DNA of 64,000 nt from Sphingopyxis sp. LK2115 (GTDB lineage Bacteria > Pseudomonadota > Alphaproteobacteria > Sphingomonadales > Sphingomonadaceae). This document shows, in pieces, positions 22,605-45,717 of the stretch. A model generated the notes under the pieces. It had not been told where the DNA came from and searched no databases. It worked only from the letters and a program-made list of their open reading frames with translations. How positions within the stretch are numbered: the first letter of the stretch is position 1; each line of letters begins with the position of its first letter. Made by a program: the position numbers and the translations under genes. The stretch is taken from assembly GCF_014595975.1 (NCBI RefSeq), contig NZ_JABWGQ010000012.1, positions 1 to 64,000 of the forward strand, in the 5' to 3' direction.

Positions 22605-24083
22605 CTAGCCGCTTTTCAGCGCGCGGTCAGCCATCGCCCTGGCTCCGCCCGACGCGGAAACAAAGGCGCTGATCGCATCGCGCCCGCCTTGCCGCTCCTC
22701 GCTCGATACGATCAGCGACAGCGCGCGCGGGTCGCCACCGATAAGCCGTGCTTTCAGCCCCGCCAGTTTGGCCGAACGCGCGCTGCCCGTCACGTCGTCG
22801 CCGACCACATACCAGGTCGCGGCGTCGCGCAGCACCGGGCCGGGATGAAGCAGGCGCTCGGTCTTGCCGCCATCGACGGCGGGCAGCGGCGCGCTCCATG
22901 CCCACCGGCTGTCGGGGTCGACCGCGCCCTGCCCGAAGGCGACGACTTCGCGACCCTCGGCCTGGCGTTCATAGCCGCCGATCGCGACGGTCACGACCTG
23001 CCCTTTCGCGTCCGCAAAGTGCCGCAAAAGCCGCCGGTCGGCGCCGTCGAAGCGCGGCGTCCAGGGAGTTCCCACCACGCGCACGTCGCGCCAGCCGGGC
23101 GGTGCCTCAACCGTCATGGTGGGTGGCAGCGGCGCGCTGCGCCCGGCGATGAGCAGGCCCCATGCGGCGAACAGCAGCGGCAACAGCAAGGCGACGGGCA
23201 GCACCGCGCGGCCCGTTCCGGCAAAACGGATCGGACCGTCCAGCCCGCGCACATCGACCGCGGCGTCGTTCGCGGGGCGGTCGAACCAGCGCCGCGCCAC
23301 CAGCATCACGATCAGGATGACAAGGCCGAAAAAGATCCAGCCATAGAAAATATGGTCGATGCCGCCCGCCGCCTCGATCCCCCAGATATCGGCGGCGAGC
23401 ATCGTGCCATAGGCGCGCAGCGCGTTGGCCAGGATCGTCGCCGCGAGCGCCGCCGCGACAAAGACGATCCGCCGCGTCCAGCTTTGGAAACAAAGATGCG
23501 CCGCGAACACCGCATAGGCGAGCATCGCGATCAGGAAATTGACCCCCGAACATTCCTCGGCCACCTCGAAAAAGCCCGCGCGCGTGGTGATGAACACCCC
23601 CTGCATCTCGGCTGCGAGGCCCGACAGGCGGAGCAGCGCGACGCTGATATGCGCGGTAAAGGTCTGGAGCAGCGGCACCAGTTCTTCGCCGAACGGCACG
23701 AGCAGCAGCGCATAGGCGAGCGGAAAGAGCAGCCCGCGCACCAGCTTTTCGCCCAGCACCACGCCGACGGCGCCCTGCAGCATCAGCACCAGGCCGAACT
23801 GGCGGAACAGCGCCACCCCCGCCGCTTCGCCGACGAGCCACACCAGCCCCGCGCCCGTCATCCAGACCAGCGCCGGCCACCAACAGGCCGGAGTCAGCCG
23901 CCGCAACAATTGGGTGCGCTGCGACACCAGCCAGCCGATCATCGGCACCATCAGCAGGCAATGGGTAAAGGTCGAACTGTTCCACCAGATGCCCGCCATG
24001 TCGGCCGCATCGCGCCAAAAGAGCGCGACGATCGCCGCCGACAGCAACGCCAACGCGGCCAGATGGCGCTGCCAGGGCGTCAT
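22605..24083 (-). CDS. xrtA: Exosortase A fused to EpsI domain
   Basis: A 492-residue inner-membrane protein. The N-terminal part (about 1-268, eight or so membrane segments) is an exosortase with catalytic C178 (EECSG), R223 (NALRAYG) and H244 (GIDHIFYGW). The C-terminal part (about 290-492) is a periplasmic EpsI-like domain following one more membrane segment. Exosortases are proposed to recognise and cleave C-terminal PEP-CTERM tails, passing the protein to a cell-surface acceptor. No PEP-CTERM substrate is encoded in the window. The ATG overlaps the glycosyltransferase stop by 4 bp. Confidence 0.95.
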   Translation of the reverse strand: MTPWQRHLAALALLSAAIVALFWRDAADMAGIWWNSSTFTHCLLMVPMIGWLVSQRTQLLRRLTPACWWPALVWMTGAGLVWLVGEAAGVALFRQFGLVLMLQGAVGVVLGEKLVRGLLFPLAYALLLVPFGEELVPLLQTFTAHISVALLRLSGLAAEMQGVFITTRAGFFEVAEECSGVNFLIAMLAYAVFAAHLCFQSWTRRIVFVAAALAATILANALRAYGTMLAADIWGIEAAGGIDHIFYGWIFFGLVILIVMLVARRWFDRPANDAAVDVRGLDGPIRFAGTGRAVLPVALLLPLLFAAWGLLIAGRSAPLPPTMTVEAPPGWRDVRVVGTPWTPRFDGADRRLLRHFADAKGQVVTVAIGGYERQAEGREVVAFGQGAVDPDSRWAWSAPLPAVDGGKTERLLHPGPVLRDAATWYVVGDDVTGSARSAKLAGLKARLIGGDPRALSLIVSSEERQGGRDAISAFVSASGGARAMADRALKSG

Positions 24084-25294: not shown

Positions 25295-26380
25295 CTATCC
25301 CAATCCGCGCGCGATCAGCGGCCCGATACGGTTCGCGGCCCACAGCGGCAGCCGTTTCCACAGGTCGACCTGCATCCGGTATCTGGCGCTGTTCGGGTTG
25401 GTATCGCGCGGCGCCTCGCCCGGCGCGAGCCAGCGCGCATAGACGAGCGACTGCGGTTCGAATCCCCAGTTCTTCTTGTAGGCGAACGGTCCCGTCCCCA
25501 GCTTCGACCGCCCAAAGTCGAAGCGCGTGCAGCCGCGCGCCCGCGCATGGCGCATCAGCGCGAAATACATAAGTTCGTTCGCGCGCAGCCGCCGCGCCTC
25601 GGCCAGTCCGCCGCCCCAATAAGGCATCACCGTGCCGCGCCAATAAAGGCTGAGCACGCTTGCCACCGGCCGAACGCCGTCGCGCACGGTCAAAATATCG
25701 GCATGCTCGCCAAAGGCATCGAGCACCGCGTCGAACAGGCTTTTGGGAAAGACCGGCGTGCCGAGGTTGCGCACGCTCGTCGCATAGATGCGGTAATGGT
25801 CGCGCCGTTCGGCGGCGTCGCGCCCCGTCGTCGCCGTCAGTTCGCTGCCCAGCGCCTTGCGCACCTCGGCGCGCTGTTTGCGGGGGATGGCAAGCAGTTC
25901 GGCCTCGTCATCGCCCGCCAGGTCACGTGCAAAGCCCGCATAGACGCCTGCCTCGCGCGCCCAGCCCTCGCCTTTGGGCAGTGATCCGCCGCGCAGTTCG
26001 ACCGACGGCACGCCAAGCGCCCGCGCCATGTTCGCCGCGCCTTCTGCCAATGTCGCGGCTATCGCGGGATTGTCGGCCAAAATGCCGCCGCCGACGGCAA
26101 AGCCGCTGCCGACCAGCGCCTGCCCGAACAGCGGCGAGCGGATGTGATGGAGCGGCAGCAGGCCGGTGAGCGCGCCCGCCGCATCGCGCGCGGTGACAAG
26201 GTGGCAGCGGTGCCCGGTCGCCCGCGTGATCGCCTCGCACCAGGCGCGGCTGTGAAAGGGCGTCGCATCATCGTGCGCCGCGACATAGGCGTCCCATTCG
26301 GCCGCGTCGGAAAGCGGCGCGCCCGCAAATGGCTTCAGCATCGTCGGATCGGCAGGCGCGTTCACGCCGCGGCTTGCCAT
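25295..26380 (-). CDS. FemAB-like protein of the XrtA/PEP-CTERM system
   Basis: About 361 residues of the FemAB-related GNAT fold specific to exosortase loci (TIGR03019 as I recall it). Diagnostic segments are AEWDAYVAAHDDATPFHSRAW, IPRKQRAEVRKALGSEL, TPVFPKSLFDAVLDAFGE, MPYWGGGLAEAR and FDFGRSKLGTGPFAYKKNWG. FemAB proteins transfer amino acids from charged tRNA; an analogous transfer to polysaccharide or peptide is inferred. The start is not certain: ATG 26380 overlaps the deacetylase by 19 bp, and GTG 26365 would give a 4-bp GTGA overlap. Confidence 0.9.
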   Translation of the reverse strand: MASRGVNAPADPTMLKPFAGAPLSDAAEWDAYVAAHDDATPFHSRAWCEAITRATGHRCHLVTARDAAGALTGLLPLHHIRSPLFGQALVGSGFAVGGGILADNPAIAATLAEGAANMARALGVPSVELRGGSLPKGEGWAREAGVYAGFARDLAGDDEAELLAIPRKQRAEVRKALGSELTATTGRDAAERRDHYRIYATSVRNLGTPVFPKSLFDAVLDAFGEHADILTVRDGVRPVASVLSLYWRGTVMPYWGGGLAEARRLRANELMYFALMRHARARGCTRFDFGRSKLGTGPFAYKKNWGFEPQSLVYARWLAPGEAPRDTNPNSARYRMQVDLWKRLPLWAANRIGPLIARGLG

Positions 26381-27222
26381 GGCTCGGCGCGCGCGCGCTG
26401 CGCGGGCAGCACGGCGTCGGCGCGCGTCCAGTCGAAATCGGCGAGCAGCTTCTTCAGCTTTCCCGCCATCGCCGACAAGCCGCTGTAATGGCGCAACTTC
26501 GACCGGATGGGCGCATCGGCGACACGCGGCTGGCCGGGGTCGATCTCCCACGGGTGGAAATAGAGGATCGCCGGATGCCCCTCGGCATTCATGCGTGCGA
26601 TCGCCCAGCGCGTGAAGCCATAGGGCAGAAGGCGCATGAAACCGCCGCCGCCCGCCGCCAGCGTGCGCCCGGCGAAGCGCGCGGTCGTCACCGGCCATTC
26701 GACAAGCTCGCTGCCCGCCACCGGCCGCCACGCATGGCGCGGGCTTTGCGGCCAGCCATAATGATCGTGAACCACCGGCGCGACGCTCGACGAATAGGCA
26801 TAGCCCTGTTCGGCGAGCACCCGGTGCGCCCACGGTGTGCGTGCATCGACCGAAAAGCTCGGCGCGCGATAGCCGCGGATCGGGGCACCGCCGACATCTT
26901 CGAGGATCGCGCGCGTTTTCAGAAGGTCGGCGGCAAATTCGTCGGCGGTCATGTTGAACACGCGCTTGTGGTCATAGCCGTGGCTGGCAATTTCGTGCCC
27001 CGCCGCGACGATCCGCCGGATCAGCGCGGGATAGCGTTCGGCGACCCAGCCGAGGGTGAAGAAGGTGCCTTTCGCGCCGGCCCCCGCGAAAATCTCCAGC
27101 ACCGCGTCGCAATTCGCCTCGACCCGGCATTCAAGCGTCGGCCAGTCGGCGCGGTCGATCGTGCGCTCAAAGGCGCCGACCTGGAACCAGTCCTCGACAT
27201 CGACCGACAGGCCGTTTTGCAT
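26362..27222 (-). CDS. XrtA-associated polysaccharide deacetylase
   Basis: A 286-residue NodB-type deacetylase with a DUF3473-like C-terminal part. Metal-binding residues are D8 or D11 in SVDVEDW and H81 and H85 in ASHGYDH; GYRAPSFSVD and FHPWEIDPGQPR are further signatures. It should remove N- or O-acetyl groups from the exopolysaccharide or a lipid-linked intermediate. No signal peptide is seen, as is usual for this subgroup (TIGR03006 as I recall it). It sits between the ATPase (45 bp gap) and the FemAB-like gene. Confidence 0.94.
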   Translation of the reverse strand: MQNGLSVDVEDWFQVGAFERTIDRADWPTLECRVEANCDAVLEIFAGAGAKGTFFTLGWVAERYPALIRRIVAAGHEIASHGYDHKRVFNMTADEFAADLLKTRAILEDVGGAPIRGYRAPSFSVDARTPWAHRVLAEQGYAYSSSVAPVVHDHYGWPQSPRHAWRPVAGSELVEWPVTTARFAGRTLAAGGGGFMRLLPYGFTRWAIARMNAEGHPAILYFHPWEIDPGQPRVADAPIRSKLRHYSGLSAMAGKLKKLLADFDWTRADAVLPAQRARAEPWQAAA

Positions 27223-33682: not shown

Positions 33683-34912
33683 CTATACGAGCATCTCGCG
33701 CGCCGGTCCCTGGCCCAGAAACGCCGCCGGGCTGGCGGTTGCGCCATAGGCCCCCGCCTGAAAGATCGCGATGAGGTCGCCGACCCCGGCGCGCGGCAGC
33801 GCGACCTGGTCGCCCAGCCGGTCGAGCGGGGTGCACAGACAGCCGACGACCGAGACGGTCTCGACGGCTTCGCGGCCGAACGAACCGGCCACCGCGATCG
33901 GATAGTTGCGGCGGATGACGGTGCCGAAATTGCCGCTTGCTGCGAGCTGGTGATGCAACCCGCCGTCGGTGACGAGAAAGGTTTCGCCATGGCTGACCTT
34001 CCGGTCGACGACGCGCGTCAGATAGACGCCCGCTTCGGCGACCAGCCAGCGGCCAAGCTCCATCGCGAAGCGGCTTTCCGCCAGCCCGGCGCCGCGCGCG
34101 GCGAGCGTCGCGCCGAGCGCCTCTCCCACCGCCGCCACATCGACTGGCGTATCGCCGGGGAAATAGGGCACGCCCATCCCGCCGCCCAGGTTGACGAGCG
34201 GCGGCGCGGCGCCGATCGCGTCGGCAAGCCGCGCCGCAAGCGCCACCGTCTGCGCCTGTGTTTCGGCGATGGCGGCGGCGTCAAGCGCCTGCGATCCCGC
34301 GAAAATATGAAAGCCCTGCCAGTCGGCGCCCGCGTCGATCAGGCGACGGACAAGCGCCGGAACCGCGGCTGCGTCGACCCCAAAGGGCTTGGCGCCGCCG
34401 CCCATCTTCATCCCCGATCCCTTGAGGTCGAAGTCGGGATTGACGCGCACCGCCAGCCGCGGCGCCGCGCCGAGGCGGTCGGCGATCGCCAGCGCGCGTT
34501 CCGCCTCGCCCGCCGATTCGAGATTGACCGTCGCGCCCGCGGCAATCGCCGCTTCCAGTTCGCGGTCACGCTTGCCCGGCCCGGCAAAGCTGATGTGCAC
34601 CGCCGCCATCCCGCTCGCCAGCGCGGCCCTGAGCTCGCCGCCCGACGCCACGTCGAACCCGTCGACCAGCCCGGCCATGAAGGCGAGCAGCGGCGGATAG
34701 GGATTGGCCTTCATCGCATAATGAAGCTGCACCTCCGCAGGCATCGCCGCGCGCCATTCGGCGACGCGCGCGCAGAGCATCGCACTGTCATAGACGAACA
34801 GCGGCGTGTCGCCCGCCGCATCGGCGAGCGATTCGGCGCGGTCGCCGCCGATCAGCAACATCCCGTCGGGATCGGCCCGGAAACCGGGCGGGATCGGCCC
34901 GTGCGGCTTCAT
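33683..34912 (-). CDS. XrtA-associated PLP-dependent decarboxylase
   Basis: A 409-residue fold-type III decarboxylase of the LysA/ornithine-decarboxylase class. The PLP lysine is K68 in LHYAMKANPYP; GFDVASGGEL, a phosphate-binding NLGGGMGVPYF and CLCTPLDRLG are conserved. It belongs to the exosortase-associated group (TIGR03099 as I recall it), whose substrate is unknown; decarboxylation of an amino acid or an amino-acyl intermediate is inferred. The ATG overlaps the ligase stop by 4 bp, so the two are translated together. Confidence 0.92.
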   Translation of the reverse strand: MKPHGPIPPGFRADPDGMLLIGGDRAESLADAAGDTPLFVYDSAMLCARVAEWRAAMPAEVQLHYAMKANPYPPLLAFMAGLVDGFDVASGGELRAALASGMAAVHISFAGPGKRDRELEAAIAAGATVNLESAGEAERALAIADRLGAAPRLAVRVNPDFDLKGSGMKMGGGAKPFGVDAAAVPALVRRLIDAGADWQGFHIFAGSQALDAAAIAETQAQTVALAARLADAIGAAPPLVNLGGGMGVPYFPGDTPVDVAAVGEALGATLAARGAGLAESRFAMELGRWLVAEAGVYLTRVVDRKVSHGETFLVTDGGLHHQLAASGNFGTVIRRNYPIAVAGSFGREAVETVSVVGCLCTPLDRLGDQVALPRAGVGDLIAIFQAGAYGATASPAAFLGQGPAREMLV

Positions 34913-36441
34913 GCCGCCGCTTTCCGTGCCCAATCGGCGGCGATCGCCACGCGGTCGAGCTTGCCGTTGGGATTGCGCGGCAGCGCGTCGCGCCATTCGA
35001 TCGTCTGCGGCTGCATGAAATTGGGCAGGGTGCGGCGAAGATGGGCGGCGAGCGCATCCCGGTCGGCGCCGCCATCCCGGCCGCGCACGATCAATATGAT
35101 CGCCGCGCCCAGCCGCGTATCGGGAATGCCGAACGCGACCGCTTCATAAACCAGCCCCGATGCGATCGCGGCGTCCTCGATCTCGGTCGGGCTGACGCGG
35201 TTGCCGGCGGTCTTGATCATCGCATCGTCGCGGCCGACGAAATAGAGGAGGCCGTTCGCATCGCGCCGGACCGTATCGCCCGACCAGACCGCCGTGCCGC
35301 CATAAAGCGAGGCGGCGGGCGCCGGGCGGAACCGCTCGGCGGTGCGCGCGGCGTCGCGCCAGTAACCCTTGGCGACGAGCGGCCCGCAATGCACAAGCTC
35401 GCCCGGCTCTTCGTCGGCGGTGATCGTGCCGTCGCCGCGGCAGACAAGGATTTCGGCGTGCGGGATCGCGCGCCCCATCGACGTCGGATGATCGGCGACG
35501 AACCCGGGTTCGAGCCAGGTCGATCGAAAGGCCTCGGTCAGCCCATACATCGGATAGATGTCGGCGGCGGGGAAAGTGCGGCGCATCGCGTCGATCAGCG
35601 ACGGCGTCAGCGCCCCGCCGCTGTTGGTCAGGCGCCTGAGCGACGCGGCTGTGTCGGCCGGCCAGTCGCTCTCGACCAGCTGCACCCACAGCGGCGGCAC
35701 ACCCGCCAGCGTGGTAATGCCGTGCCGCGCCACCGCCTTCATGACGTCGCGCGCGGTCAGATAATCGAGCGGCGCGACGGCGGCGCCCGCATACCAGCTC
35801 GACAACAACTGATTCTGCCCATAATCGAAGCTCAAGGGCAGCACGCCAAGCACGCGGTCGGCCGGCGCCAGCTTCAGATAGGTGGCGACGCTTTCGGCGC
35901 CGAGCCACAGATTCGCGTGGCTCAGCATCACCCCCTTGGGCCGTCCGGTCGAACCGCTGGTATAAAGAATGGCGGCAAGGTCATCGGGGTCGGCTTTCGA
36001 CGGCGGCAACGCCTCTCCGCCCGAATCCATGGCTTGCTCGGCCGCCTTCAGATCATGCAGCGCGCATCCCGCGGGCAACCCATCGCCCAGCGCCTCGGCG
36101 CGCGCCGCGTTGGTGACGAGCAGCTTCGCCCCGCTGTCGGCCAGGATATGCTGCGCCTGCGGTCCTTTGAGCAGCGGGTTGATCGGCACATGGATCAGCC
36201 CCGCGCGCGCCGCGGCGAGCGGCATCAGGCAAGCAAGCCGCGTCTTGGCGCTCCAGCTCGCGACGCGCTCGCCCGGATCGCCGACCTGTTCGCGCAGCCA
36301 TGCGGCAAGCCGTCCCACGCCTGCATCGAGTTCGGCGTAGGTCGTGCTCCGCTCGCCGGTCAGCAGCGCAGTCGCGTCCATCGCGCCGCGGCGGGCGAGA
36401 TGGTCAATTGGATGCGACACGGGATTTTGGGGCTTGGTCAT
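34909..36441 (-). CDS. XrtA-associated AMP-forming acyl/aminoacyl ligase
   Basis: A 510-residue adenylating enzyme of the ANL family with P-loop LYTSGSTGRPKG at 159-170, YGLTEAF and the C-terminal catalytic Lys in NPNGKLDR (about 494). It activates a carboxylate as an adenylate and probably loads it onto a thiol carrier; the divergent acyl carrier protein is the obvious partner. It is 35 bp from the start of the divergent GNAT gene and coupled to the decarboxylase. It belongs to the exosortase-A-associated ligase group (TIGR03098 as I recall it). Confidence 0.92.
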   Translation of the reverse strand: MTKPQNPVSHPIDHLARRGAMDATALLTGERSTTYAELDAGVGRLAAWLREQVGDPGERVASWSAKTRLACLMPLAAARAGLIHVPINPLLKGPQAQHILADSGAKLLVTNAARAEALGDGLPAGCALHDLKAAEQAMDSGGEALPPSKADPDDLAAILYTSGSTGRPKGVMLSHANLWLGAESVATYLKLAPADRVLGVLPLSFDYGQNQLLSSWYAGAAVAPLDYLTARDVMKAVARHGITTLAGVPPLWVQLVESDWPADTAASLRRLTNSGGALTPSLIDAMRRTFPAADIYPMYGLTEAFRSTWLEPGFVADHPTSMGRAIPHAEILVCRGDGTITADEEPGELVHCGPLVAKGYWRDAARTAERFRPAPAASLYGGTAVWSGDTVRRDANGLLYFVGRDDAMIKTAGNRVSPTEIEDAAIASGLVYEAVAFGIPDTRLGAAIILIVRGRDGGADRDALAAHLRRTLPNFMQPQTIEWRDALPRNPNGKLDRVAIAADWARKAAA

Positions 36442-36476
36442 CGGCTGTTAGGGGTGGGATGATAGAGGGGCGCACC

Positions 36477-37466
36477 ATGCAAGGGAACGGTGAAGATCAG
36501 GCTAATGACGATGCGGCGCGCGCCGCAGACTTCGCCTCGCCTTTCGACCGCGCCGAATGGTTCGATCTGCTCGAAGCCTATGGCTTTGCGGGCAAGGGCC
36601 GCGTCGATGCCAGGGGTTCGTGCGCCGCCGCCACGGCGGTTCTGCCGCTGCGCCGTGAAAGGGCCGCACATCTGGCGGGCCTGACCAACTGGTACAGTTT
36701 CGCGATCCGGCCCTTGTTCATCGGAACCGGGGACCGCCCGGCGGCGCTCGCCGACCTGTTCAGGCGCCTGCGCGCAGAGGCCGCCCGCCTGTCGCTCTAT
36801 CCCGTGATCGAAGGCGAACAGGACCGAATCGCCGCGGCGCTGCGCGCCGCCGGCTGGTGGGTGCAAGCCACCCCCGCGGGCGATCGCCACTGGCTCGACC
36901 TCGGCGGGATGGACCATGCCGCCTGGTGGGCGAGCCGCCCCGGCGCGCTGCGCAGCACCGTCCGGCGCAAGGCGAAAAAGGGCATCGTCGACATTCAGCT
37001 GCTGACCGAGTTCGATCCCGGAAGCTGGGCCGCCTATGAACAGATATACGCCGCAAGCTGGAAACCCGAAGAAGGGCACCCCGCCCTGCTCCGCGCCTTT
37101 GCCGAAATGGAAGGGGCGCGCGGCACCTTGCGCATGGGGATCGCGCGCATCGACCATATGCCCGTCGCGGCGCAGTTCTGGACCGTCGAGGGCGGCACCG
37201 CCTTCATCCACAAGCTCGCGCATGTCGAGGACAGCTTGAAAGCGTCCCCCGGCACCCTGCTCTCGGCCGCGCTGTTCCGCCATGTGATCGAGGTCGACGG
37301 TGTCCGCCGGGTCGATTTCGGCACCGGCAACGATGCCTACAAGCGCGACTGGATGAACCGCCACGATCCCTTGTGGCGCATCGAGGCTTTCAATCCGTCG
37401 CGCGCCGCGGCATGGGGACCGGCGTTGAAAGCCTTTGCCCGATCGATTTTGAGGAAAGACACGTGA
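36477..37466 (+). CDS. GNAT/FemAB-like acyltransferase next to the XrtA ligase
   Basis: A 329-residue GNAT-fold protein with FDRAEWFDLLEAYGF, the basic LRSTVRRKAKKG helix, YAASWKPEEGHPALLRAFAE, and FGTGNDAYKRDWM near the end. This arrangement is common for proteins encoded beside an exosortase ACP and ligase. It probably transfers an activated group from the carrier protein to an acceptor. The ATG at 36477 has a GAGGGG site 6 bases upstream; an ATG at 36459 is less well placed. It overlaps the ACP gene by 4 bp. Confidence 0.8.
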   Translation: MQGNGEDQANDDAARAADFASPFDRAEWFDLLEAYGFAGKGRVDARGSCAAATAVLPLRRERAAHLAGLTNWYSFAIRPLFIGTGDRPAALADLFRRLRAEAARLSLYPVIEGEQDRIAAALRAAGWWVQATPAGDRHWLDLGGMDHAAWWASRPGALRSTVRRKAKKGIVDIQLLTEFDPGSWAAYEQIYAASWKPEEGHPALLRAFAEMEGARGTLRMGIARIDHMPVAAQFWTVEGGTAFIHKLAHVEDSLKASPGTLLSAALFRHVIEVDGVRRVDFGTGNDAYKRDWMNRHDPLWRIEAFNPSRAAAWGPALKAFARSILRKDT

Positions 37467-37741
37467 CCGATTCCGCCTCCCAAACATCGGGCGTCGACGC
37501 CGCCCTCCGCGCGCTGCTCGCCGACGTGCTGGGTCTTGGGACCGACCGCGCGGCCGCGCTCTCTGACGACAGCGGGCTGTTCGGCGCGCTGCCCGAGTTC
37601 GACTCAATGGCGGTCGCGACGGTGCTCACCGAGATGGAGGACCGCCTTGGCATCCTCATCGACGATGACGAGATCGAGGGCGAAATCTTTGAAACCTATG
37701 GCAACCTGCTCGCCTTTGTGACGCGCAAGGTGACGGGTTGA
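37463..37741 (+). CDS. Exosortase-associated acyl carrier protein
   Basis: A 92-residue ACP-like protein. The phosphopantetheine attachment serine is S48 in PEFDSMAVATVL. Acidic helices follow (DDDEIEGEIFETYG), normal for the family. The GTG start overlaps the GNAT stop (GTGA) with a GAGGAAAG ribosome site 5 bases upstream. It should carry the group activated by the divergent AMP ligase. A REP-like repeat follows before the hydrolases. Confidence 0.88.
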   Translation: MTDSASQTSGVDAALRALLADVLGLGTDRAAALSDDSGLFGALPEFDSMAVATVLTEMEDRLGILIDDDEIEGEIFETYGNLLAFVTRKVTG

Positions 37742-37760
37742 CGGCATGGAGCACTCGCTT

Positions 37761-37854
37761 TCCGCGTTCACCCTGATCTTGCCGAAGGGCTGTTCCATTC
37801 TTTCGGACCCTGGAAAGAAGAAGGACGGTCCCTCGTCAAGCTCAGGACAAACGG
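37761..37854. repeat. REP-like inverted repeat, family A copy 1
   Basis: Both ends resemble CTTCGACAAGCTCAGGxCAAACGG, facing each other across a variable centre; the right end is CTCGTCAAGCTCAGGACAAACGG. It fills the gap between the acyl carrier protein and hydrolase 2 genes. Other copies are at 45718, 51773 and 55531. Confidence 0.7.
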
Positions 37855-37885
37855 CGGTGGGTCAGAGCTGCTGACGGGTAACGCG

Positions 37886-38569
37886 ATGTCCGCCCCCGAA
37901 CATCAGTTCCGCATCGCCCCCGTCGGCACGCCGCGCGCCACCATCCTTTTCGTCCCGCCGCTGTTCGACGAAGCCAACCGCATTCGCCGCACCCTCGTAT
38001 GCGCGATGCGCGCGCTGGCCGCGGACGGCTTTGCGACCCTGATCCCCGACCTTCCCGGGCAGAATGAAAGCCTGGTCCCGCTCGAACAGGTCGACCTTGC
38101 CGCCTGGCAAGGCGCATTGGCCGACGTCGCAGCCGCCATCGACGGCCCCCTTATCATCGCCGCTCTGCGTGGCGGCGCGTTGATCGACCACCATGCGAAA
38201 GCCACCGCCTGGTGGCGCCTCGCCCCCGTTGGCGGCGCCGCGCTGCTCCGCACCCTTCTGCGCGCGCGTGTCGCCGCCGACCGCGAAAGCGGCGTCACCT
38301 CGTCGCTCGACAGCCTGCAAGCAGATGCCGCCACCGCGCCGCTGTTGCTCGCGGGCAATCGCCTGTCGCCCGCCATGATCGCGCAGTTGGGCAGCGCGGA
38401 AATCCGGCCTGTCGAACCGCTCCGCACCGTCACCGTCGGCGGCGGCGGCGCCGACGCCATCGTCGGCACGCCGCTGTGGCTGCGCGCCGAGCCCGGCGAG
38501 GACGCGGCCATGGTCAACGCGATTGCCGCCGACATTGCGGCATGGAGCGCGACGTGCGGCATCGGCTGA
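37886..38569 (+). CDS. XrtA-associated alpha/beta hydrolase 2 (degenerate active site)
   Basis: A 227-residue member of the exosortase-associated hydrolase 2 group (TIGR03101 as I recall it). ILFVPPLFDEANRIRR and PDLPGQNES match the family. At the nucleophile elbow, where GxSxG is expected, the sequence is IAALRGGAL (91-99), with no Ser, Cys or Asp. It may therefore be non-catalytic or act by another means. It overlaps hydrolase 1 by about 28 bp and follows the ACP gene across a REP-like repeat. Confidence 0.85.
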   Translation: MSAPEHQFRIAPVGTPRATILFVPPLFDEANRIRRTLVCAMRALAADGFATLIPDLPGQNESLVPLEQVDLAAWQGALADVAAAIDGPLIIAALRGGALIDHHAKATAWWRLAPVGGAALLRTLLRARVAADRESGVTSSLDSLQADAATAPLLLAGNRLSPAMIAQLGSAEIRPVEPLRTVTVGGGGADAIVGTPLWLRAEPGEDAAMVNAIAADIAAWSATCGIG

Positions 38570-39351
38570 GCTTCCCCTGCGACGGCGCGGCGCTTGCCGC
38601 CACGCTCGACGAGGCGCCGGGAACGACCGGGCTGCTCATCGTATCGGGCGGCAATGAAATCCGCAGCGGCGCGCATCGCGGCATGGCGATGCTCGCGGCG
38701 CGCATCGCCGATGCAGGCTATCCGGTGTTCCGCTTTGACCGTCGCGGCATCGGCGACAGCGAGGGGGCGAACGGCGGCTTTGAAAGCAGCGCGCCCGACA
38801 TCGCCGCCGCGATCGCCGCGTTCCGCGACGCTGCACCGCATGTCGAACGGGTCGCCGCCTTCGGCAATTGCGACGCGGCGAGCGCGCTTCTCCTCCACCA
38901 GCCGCTGCCGCTCGACGCGCTGATCCTCGCCAACCCCTGGACCTATGAGGCCGCGGCGGAGACCGCCGACGAACCCGCGCTGCCCCCCGCCGCGGCGATC
39001 CGCGCGCGTTACCTGTCGCGGCTCACCAATCCCGAAAGCCTGCTGCGCCTGCTGCGCGGCGAGGTCGATTTCGCCAAGCTGCGCCGCGGCCTTGCGGCGC
39101 TGCGCCGCCCCAAACAAGCCGCCGCGCCGGACAGCCTCGCCGCGCGCCTCGACGCGGCGGCCCGGCGCCTTGCCATTCCCGCGACGATCCTGCTCGCGAC
39201 CGGCGACCGCACCGCGCAGGCATTCGCCGCCGACTGCCCGGCAATTCTGGCGCGCTTGCCCGTCGAACGCATCGCAAGCGCCTCGCACAGCTTTGCAGGC
39301 GACGATGCCGACTGGCTGGCGGCGCGGATATTGACGATTTTGGGCCGTTGA
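38542..39351 (+). CDS. XrtA-associated alpha/beta hydrolase 1 (Cys nucleophile)
   Basis: A 269-residue alpha/beta hydrolase. FRFDRRGIGDSEG and HSFAGDDADW (with the likely catalytic His) are present. The elbow reads AFGNCDAASALL, placing C110 where Ser usually stands, as in the exosortase hydrolase 1 group (TIGR03100 as I recall it). It may act as a thioesterase-like or transacylating partner of the carrier protein. The start is uncertain: ATG 38542 or GTG 38554, both overlapping hydrolase 2. Confidence 0.87.
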   Translation: MERDVRHRLSFPCDGAALAATLDEAPGTTGLLIVSGGNEIRSGAHRGMAMLAARIADAGYPVFRFDRRGIGDSEGANGGFESSAPDIAAAIAAFRDAAPHVERVAAFGNCDAASALLLHQPLPLDALILANPWTYEAAAETADEPALPPAAAIRARYLSRLTNPESLLRLLRGEVDFAKLRRGLAALRRPKQAAAPDSLAARLDAAARRLAIPATILLATGDRTAQAFAADCPAILARLPVERIASASHSFAGDDADWLAARILTILGR

Positions 39352-45709: not shown

Positions 45710-45717
45710 CCCTCTTG

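Follow-up and report, generated by a model that had tools for sequence, protein, structure and literature searches.

We analysed a 64,000-nucleotide stretch of the genome of Sphingopyxis sp. LK2115 (assembly GCF_014595975.1, contig NZ_JABWGQ010000012.1, positions 1 to 64,000 of the forward strand), referred to below as the window, and within it a module of six genes that appears to load an amino acid onto an acyl carrier protein (ACP) and to decarboxylate it there. NCBIfam profile matches mark the window as a Sphingopyxis-type exopolysaccharide locus of the exosortase XrtA, with the module lying directly upstream of the XrtA exopolysaccharide genes; among named relatives Sphingopyxis is the closest, with decarboxylase identities of up to 90%. 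All six reading frames of the module are present in the list of open reading frames and their translations:

33683-34912, minus strand: decarboxylase dependent on pyridoxal phosphate (PLP), BtrK-like (TIGR03099), 409 amino acids; 564.8 bits in NCBIfam (cut-off 478), BtrK match, LCTP motif
34909-36441, minus strand: AMP ligase, VinN-like (TIGR03098), 510 amino acids; 645.1 bits in NCBIfam (cut-off 592), VinN pocket match
35524-35826, minus strand: stretch with the ligase pocket residues, D206 at 35824-35826, S274 at 35620-35622 and R306 at 35524-35526, from the alignment, codons checked
36477-37466, plus strand: tandem GNAT protein, predicted FemX-type fold (PF13480), 329 amino acids; Pfam 2.4e-17; structure model
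37463-37741, plus strand: ACP (PF00550), 92 amino acids; phosphopantetheine Ser48 at 37604-37606
37886-38569, plus strand: hydrolase-2-like alpha/beta protein without nucleophile, 227 amino acids; 51.2 bits against TIGR03101, below the cut-off of 202.75 and so a relative by position and sequence only; R95 at 38168-38170
38551-39351, plus strand: hydrolase 1 (TIGR03100), 266 amino acids; 221.8 bits in NCBIfam (cut-off 168.45); triad C107/D219/H246

The decarboxylase and ligase genes overlap by 4 bp (34909-34912), a gap of 35 bp (36442-36476) separates the ligase from the divergent GNAT gene, the GNAT and ACP genes overlap by 4 bp (GTGA), and the two hydrolase-type genes overlap by 19 bp. An earlier note on this DNA had described six genes with the 4-bp overlaps and the 35-bp divergent gap, and reading frames and coordinates agree with it; the interval it gave for the module, 34909-39351, leaves the decarboxylase outside. 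The 144-bp gap between the ACP and hydrolase-2-like genes (37742-37885) holds a dispersed repeat, TCAAGCTCAGGACAAACGG, at 37836-37854, and near copies with 2-3 mismatches lie at 45717, 45786 and 55532 of the window, where chance would lead us to expect none.

Ligase, decarboxylase and carrier protein

At full length the ligase resembles many adenylation domains in a search of PDB sequences. When the comparison is confined to its substrate-binding stretch, VinN leads the PDB matches at 52 bits, the next protein scoring 29.5, and D206, S274 and R306 align with VinN D230, S299 and R331. According to PMC7756342, D230 of VinN is proposed to recognise the amino group and S299 and R331 the alpha-carboxyl, and these residues are kept in BolO, which is assigned to aspartate. 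Of the ligases, 41 lie within 20 kb of locus sequence that also holds a decarboxylase; all of these have the aspartate and the arginine, and 40 have a serine or threonine (L062 has alanine), while the D-[ST]-R set is missing in 13 of the 16 further ligases fetched. Among those that keep it, L103 is the TIGR03098 gene of a module genome (G102), L106 comes from a genome with a sub-cut-off decarboxylase relative (G143), and L101 is taken up below. By module genomes we mean the 30 genomes, in a sample of 398 from Pseudomonadota, that match TIGR03099 over its cut-off; rows were included in alignments at phmmer scores of 150 bits for the ligase, 120 for the decarboxylase, 60 for hydrolase 1, 25 for hydrolase 2 and 20 for the ACP.

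Which acid would such a ligase load? Glutamate mutase, the source of 3-methylaspartate in vicenistatin biosynthesis, is absent from all 30 module genomes in a genome search, and we therefore set 3-methylaspartate aside as substrate and take aspartate as the simplest substrate, with beta-alanyl-ACP as the simplest product. We propose that the ligase is an aminoacyl-ACP synthetase for aspartate-type acids.

The best PDB match of the decarboxylase is BtrK, at 228 bits, compared with 126 bits for the best diaminopimelate decarboxylase (LysA), and against the NCBIfam model of LysA it stays below the cut-off (223 bits vs 298). It has the LCTP motif at residues 359-362 in common with BtrK. Around the active-site cysteine, 52 of 53 aligned decarboxylases read LCT, as BtrK does, and L062 reads ICT; the LysA rows (7) carry CE[ST] instead. 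The tree places the 30 rows of XrtA-type decarboxylases in a clade of their own (100/100) and the 7 LysA rows in another (100/100). Given these scores and separate clades, we set aside a LysA-like decarboxylase that acts on a free substrate. BtrK-like decarboxylases at about 270-304 bits were also seen in L076, L077 and L078 and in about 60 genomes of the family f38; those of the three loci have an LCTG motif, and no ligase match stands beside them there.

The ACP finds its best PDB match in 2lki (57.9 bits), and its phosphopantetheine serine, Ser48, is conserved in all 29 ACP rows. Decarboxylation on such a carrier has precedents: BtrK is described as decarboxylating glutamate bound to the ACP BtrI (PMC7857480), and in vicenistatin biosynthesis, as outlined in PMC11284099, the PLP decarboxylase acts only after thioester formation, that is, the acid is loaded first and decarboxylated on the carrier. 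The module resembles VinN/VinL/VinO of vicenistatin, and FlvN-type loading of beta-amino acids, in its stand-alone adenylating enzyme, stand-alone ACP and PLP decarboxylase and in the conserved pocket residues; it differs in that no second adenylating enzyme (VinM), VinK acyltransferase or polyketide synthase was identified in the window module, which sits in an exosortase exopolysaccharide locus and has a FemX-type GNAT instead. The BtrI/BtrK pair of the butirosin side chain has the decarboxylase nearest by sequence, with the shared LCTP motif, and by analogy an ACP-tethered substrate would be common to both, but the loading enzyme of the window is an AMP ligase and the butirosin product goes to an aminoglycoside. 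For bolagladin, a ligase, an ACP and a BtrK-like decarboxylase (BolO/BolC/BolN) are proposed in PMC7756342 to take aspartate to beta-alanyl-ACP in a proteobacterium, but that route feeds a nonribosomal peptide synthetase.

By homology, then, we expect that the VinN-like ligase would adenylate the side-chain carboxyl of an aspartate-type acid, the substrate class being suggested by the pocket residues, and would load it onto the phosphopantetheine of the ACP. The BtrK-like decarboxylase would strip the alpha-carboxyl on the carrier to leave a beta-aminoacyl-ACP, most simply beta-alanyl-ACP. As a class of chemistry, judged from the sequences, we consider these two steps highly probable. The outline in the earlier note, with activation of an acid, its loading onto the ACP and its decarboxylation to an amine-bearing acyl product, is thus supported, VinN/VinL/VinO and BtrI/BtrK being specific precedents for it.

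Distribution of the module

In the phylum sample TIGR03099 occurs in 30 of 398 genomes and XrtA in 35, with 27 holding both (p 1.5e-31 at genome level, where kinship is ignored; 6.8e-9 at family level, from a table tallied by hand). The 30 module genomes belong to nine families, 19 of them to one. Outside the sphingomonads, distances of tens of kb or more between the module and xrtA are frequent, so this co-occurrence amounts to more than linkage. The ligase is over its cut-off in 29 of the 30 module genomes, that of G126 scoring 548.7 bits vs 592.35, and ligase and decarboxylase occur together even where they are unlinked (G102). An ACP is found in 30 of 30, within the decarboxylase locus in 29 and at another place in G318. 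Hydrolase 1 occurs in all 27 genomes with both XrtA and TIGR03099, and among the 11 that have one but not the other no match reaches its cut-off; here the G126 match, at 166.0 bits (cut-off 168.45), was counted as present, and weak matches of 46-58 bits in G107, G375 and G007 as absent. Within the fetched loci, a GNAT is seen alongside the module in about 12 of the 30 genomes.

Closer to the window, we examined those 65 of 80 fetched sphingomonad loci in which the sequence runs 4.5 kb or more past the ligase; L174 lies on the contig of L042 (G155) and L135 on that of L038 (G127), and each was counted once. A separate ACP is present in 64 of the 65, and in the remaining locus, from Alteraurantiacibacter aquimixticola, the ACP is fused to the GNAT, so that an ACP is found in 65 of 65. 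Of these 65 loci, 51 have the GNAT, 55 have hydrolase 1 and 57 have hydrolase 2. The co-occurrence of all six genes as a set, which the earlier note had expected profiling to show, turns out not to be obligate, and on these counts we set aside an obligate six-gene operon. Because of their occurrence in the phylum sample, we take the ligase, decarboxylase and ACP as the core of the module; hydrolase 1 marks the use of this core together with XrtA, and the GNAT is optional. Across 397 Sphingomonadaceae genomes TIGR03099 is over its cut-off in 333; among the 360 that are near-complete, a match at E 1e-80 is missing in 46.

Two side observations concern the neighbourhoods. In L031, L033 and L103, which are distant module loci, a relative of asparagine-synthase-type amidotransferases adjoins hydrolase 1, the decarboxylase or the ligase. 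In L042 a deacetylase and an ATPase stand beside the ligase, decarboxylase and ACP, and the export, chain-length and kinase genes are missing from the fetched stretch.

Transfer, acceptor and hydrolases

Searched by sequence against the PDB, the GNAT protein has no meaningful match. Its structure model (predicted local distance difference test 92.4, from 50 sequences) finds fold matches led by aminoacyltransferases, namely FemX at Z 20-21, the Sbb17/Sba18 peptide synthases at 19.6 and MprF/A-PGS at about 17, with a glucosamine N-acetyltransferase below them at Z 15. The superposition on FemX (Z 21.0) covers 292 residues, that is, the whole length, at a root mean square deviation of 4.0 and 12% identity. 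The model thus predicts a FemX-type aminoacyltransferase fold. The GNAT has no NCBIfam match at E 0.001 and so is not the TIGR03019 protein of XrtA systems, for which the locus has a separate gene. Elsewhere, PF13480 proteins lie beside the ACP in G318 (L104) and beside hydrolase 1 in L057. In A. aquimixticola (L135:7161-8459, minus strand) tandem GNAT and ACP make up one frame of 433 amino acids with an internal ATG, and in a distant alphaproteobacterium (L067:6020-8794, minus strand) a frame of 924 amino acids with a C-terminal PF13480 domain stands beside the decarboxylase, ligase and ACP. That the GNAT adjoins the ACP or is fused to it suggests the ACP as the source of the group that it transfers.

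Where might this group go? The XrtA locus runs on the minus strand through genes for an amidotransferase, XrtA, a glycosyltransferase, FemAB, a deacetylase, an ATPase, a kinase, a chain-length protein and an export protein, among them:

22605-24083, minus strand: exosortase XrtA with EpsI domain (TIGR03109), 306 bits
25295-26302, minus strand: matched part of the FemAB-family XrtA protein (TIGR03019), 357 bits, residues 178-512 of the frame 25295-26833
26362-27222, minus strand: XrtA-system polysaccharide deacetylase (TIGR03006), 401 bits
32857-33522, minus strand: XrtA-system polysaccharide export protein (TIGR03027), adjoining the decarboxylase, 229.9 bits

We propose that, where the GNAT is present, it would move the aminoacyl group to an amine. 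The most likely acceptor is an amino sugar, in the exopolysaccharide or in its lipid-linked precursor, that the deacetylase encoded nearby would expose. An analogy is offered by HfsH/HfsK of the Caulobacter holdfast, a polysaccharide deacetylase and a FemX-like tandem GNAT that might acylate freed exopolysaccharide amines (PMC5362036); unlike in the window, no ACP, ligase or decarboxylase figures in that system in the part of PMC5362036 considered here, which leaves the catalytic role and the donor of HfsK open.

The Cys-Asp-His triad of hydrolase 1, with cysteine as nucleophile, is complete in all 26 rows of one alignment and invariant over the 48 of another, and would be fitting for thioester chemistry. 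The model of hydrolase 1 has an alpha/beta-hydrolase fold and matches esterases, lipases and the curacin thioesterase domain, which is too general for a choice; hydrolase 1 may serve as a second candidate acyltransferase or as an editing thioesterase. In the hydrolase-2-like protein all 22 rows have arginine at the nucleophile elbow, and it is probably a non-catalytic partner rather than a hydrolase. Where the earlier note had two alpha/beta hydrolases, the triad bears out hydrolase 1, and for the hydrolase-2-like protein the word hydrolyses becomes doubtful. Similarly, its statement that the families are known exosortase companions holds for TIGR03098, TIGR03099 and TIGR03100, which the window ligase, decarboxylase and hydrolase 1 match over the curated cut-offs, and is weak for the TIGR03101 relative, which falls far short of its own. 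The NCBIfam names of TIGR03098-TIGR03101 give neither substrate nor product.

Alternatives and significance

Taken together, we propose that the ACP receives aspartate through its side chain, that decarboxylation turns this into beta-alanyl-ACP and that the group is then passed on, with exopolysaccharide amines as the most likely acceptors, and we assign this reading as a whole a probability of roughly 0.6. For the exopolysaccharide as the destination, taken by itself, we would put the odds at about even. The gene families and the neighbourhood are known; the specific mechanism is new, and we did not find it in print. Among open-licence PMC papers none was found on the module or its chemistry with an exosortase, and neither the abstract of the founding exosortase paper (PMC1569441) nor a term search of it yields 'decarboxylase', 'ligase', 'acyl carrier', 'hydrolase' or 'FemAB'. 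We found no measured activity, and this counts against our proposal, as do several of our own results. L101, a ligase with the pocket signature, comes from an XrtA genome without TIGR03099, and none lies within its 20-kb neighbourhood. VinN has a lysine, which we take to be K330, where the window ligase has phenylalanine, so the two pockets are not identical. In the decarboxylase tree BtrK sits on a long branch of unsure placement, so the tie of the window decarboxylase to it rests on score and motif. G107, G396 and G155 keep the trio of ligase, decarboxylase and ACP without XrtA over its cut-off anywhere in the genome (G155 has an XrtA relative at 127.7 bits), and L145 and L172 keep it with no exopolysaccharide gene in the fetched stretch, which a role confined to exopolysaccharide does not predict. 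FemX-like enzymes use aminoacyl-tRNA as donor, not ACP. Finally, many loci with a complete core lack the GNAT; in these a different acyltransferase would have to act, unless the GNAT serves some other purpose.

How do other explanations fare against these data? It is very unlikely, in our view, that the decarboxylase is an ordinary enzyme of the diaminopimelate/ornithine type and the ligase an ordinary acyl-CoA ligase, mere neighbours of each other: the fold families agree with this and the ligase family is named acyl-CoA ligase, but LysA and the XrtA-type decarboxylases occupy separate clades with different catalytic motifs, the pocket signature is missing from those 13 other ligases, and ligase and decarboxylase co-occur in G102 though unlinked. 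Doubtful, too, is a tethered acid other than aspartate, such as glutamate or another diacid, which would give gamma-aminobutyryl-ACP as with BtrI/BtrK. The decarboxylase is nearest to BtrK, which acts on glutamyl-ACP, but the ligase pocket is nearest to that of VinN, whose substrate is 3-methylaspartate, and the aspartate-assigned BolO has the same residues; moreover, the loading enzyme of BtrK is of another class. The absence of glutamate mutase favours aspartate over 3-methylaspartate and is silent on glutamate. We regard it as quite improbable that PEP-CTERM proteins take the place of polysaccharide, with the aminoacyl group decorating or releasing them by way of XrtA. In favour of this, TIGR03099 is found in 27 of 35 XrtA genomes, and its library note is said to speculate on a linker for PEP-CTERM release. 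Against it, the PEP-CTERM model finds a single weak match in the genome of the window (E 0.0175) and the PEPxxWA model none, and G024, G223 and G283, with XrtA and the module, have neither at E 0.1, though the models may miss variant tails; of the 8 XrtA genomes without the module, 7 have 4-14 PEP-CTERM matches and one has 1. Since PEP-CTERM matches are so scarce in these four genomes with XrtA and the module, polysaccharide is the likelier acceptor, and on these match counts we set aside the decoration of PEP-CTERM proteins as the main role. Of the aminoacyl decoration suggested in the earlier note, for exopolysaccharide or for a PEP-CTERM protein, the exopolysaccharide half thus gains from the FemX-type fold, the single GNAT-ACP frame and the deacetylase nearby, and the protein half becomes less likely.

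A different use of the same thioester is a serious rival to decoration, with which it could also run in parallel: the trio may be a source of beta-alanine independent of PanD, with beta-alanyl-ACP hydrolysed by hydrolase 1 or another thioesterase and the beta-alanine used by PanC for pantothenate and coenzyme A (CoA). PanD occurs in 197 of the 398 genomes yet in 0 of the 30 module genomes (p 4e-10, with kinship ignored), PanC in 29 of the 30, G338 being the exception, and PanP over its cut-off in only four (G126, G318, G342 and G348). In the 19 Sphingomonadales rows of Table A2 of PMC7142369, ADC and GAD are each filled in 0 and PYD3 (beta-alanine synthase) in 2; for Citromicrobium sp. JLT1363 and Sphingobium sp. 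SYK-6, in both of which we find the trio, the table has no ADC, GAD or PYD3. In G396 and G155, two of the genomes without XrtA over its cut-off, the trio stands beside housekeeping genes. Nevertheless we think this account unlikely. PanP is present in those four module genomes and weakly matched in five others (88-133 bits, cut-off 606); TIGR03099 is over its cut-off in just 333 of the 397 Sphingomonadaceae genomes; and the transaminase column AAM of the same table is filled in 13 of the 19 rows, with GabT in JLT1363 and SYK-6, so another route to beta-alanine is possible. Beta-alanine supply also leaves unexplained the coupling to XrtA and hydrolase 1 outside the sphingomonads, the cofactor of the ACP itself needs pantetheine, and the PanD count is inflated by kinship, given how the 30 genomes are spread over families. 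It is unlikely, but conceivable, that the pathway has two ends in sphingomonads, with beta-alanyl-ACP decorating deacetylated exopolysaccharide through a FemX-type transferase fed by the ACP, and hydrolysis of the same thioester replacing PanD for CoA.

If aspartate is indeed loaded, decarboxylated and transferred as we propose, NCBIfam families labelled only 'exosortase A system-associated' would gain a concrete chemistry, and a chemistry familiar from natural products would be carried into general cell-surface biology. The proposal would suggest which donor serves FemX-like enzymes encoded in exopolysaccharide loci, such as HfsK, for which the 2017 paper, in the part considered, leaves the question open. 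It also raises a possible answer to the question of where beta-alanine comes from in Sphingomonadales, which lack PanD in most of the genomes examined here.

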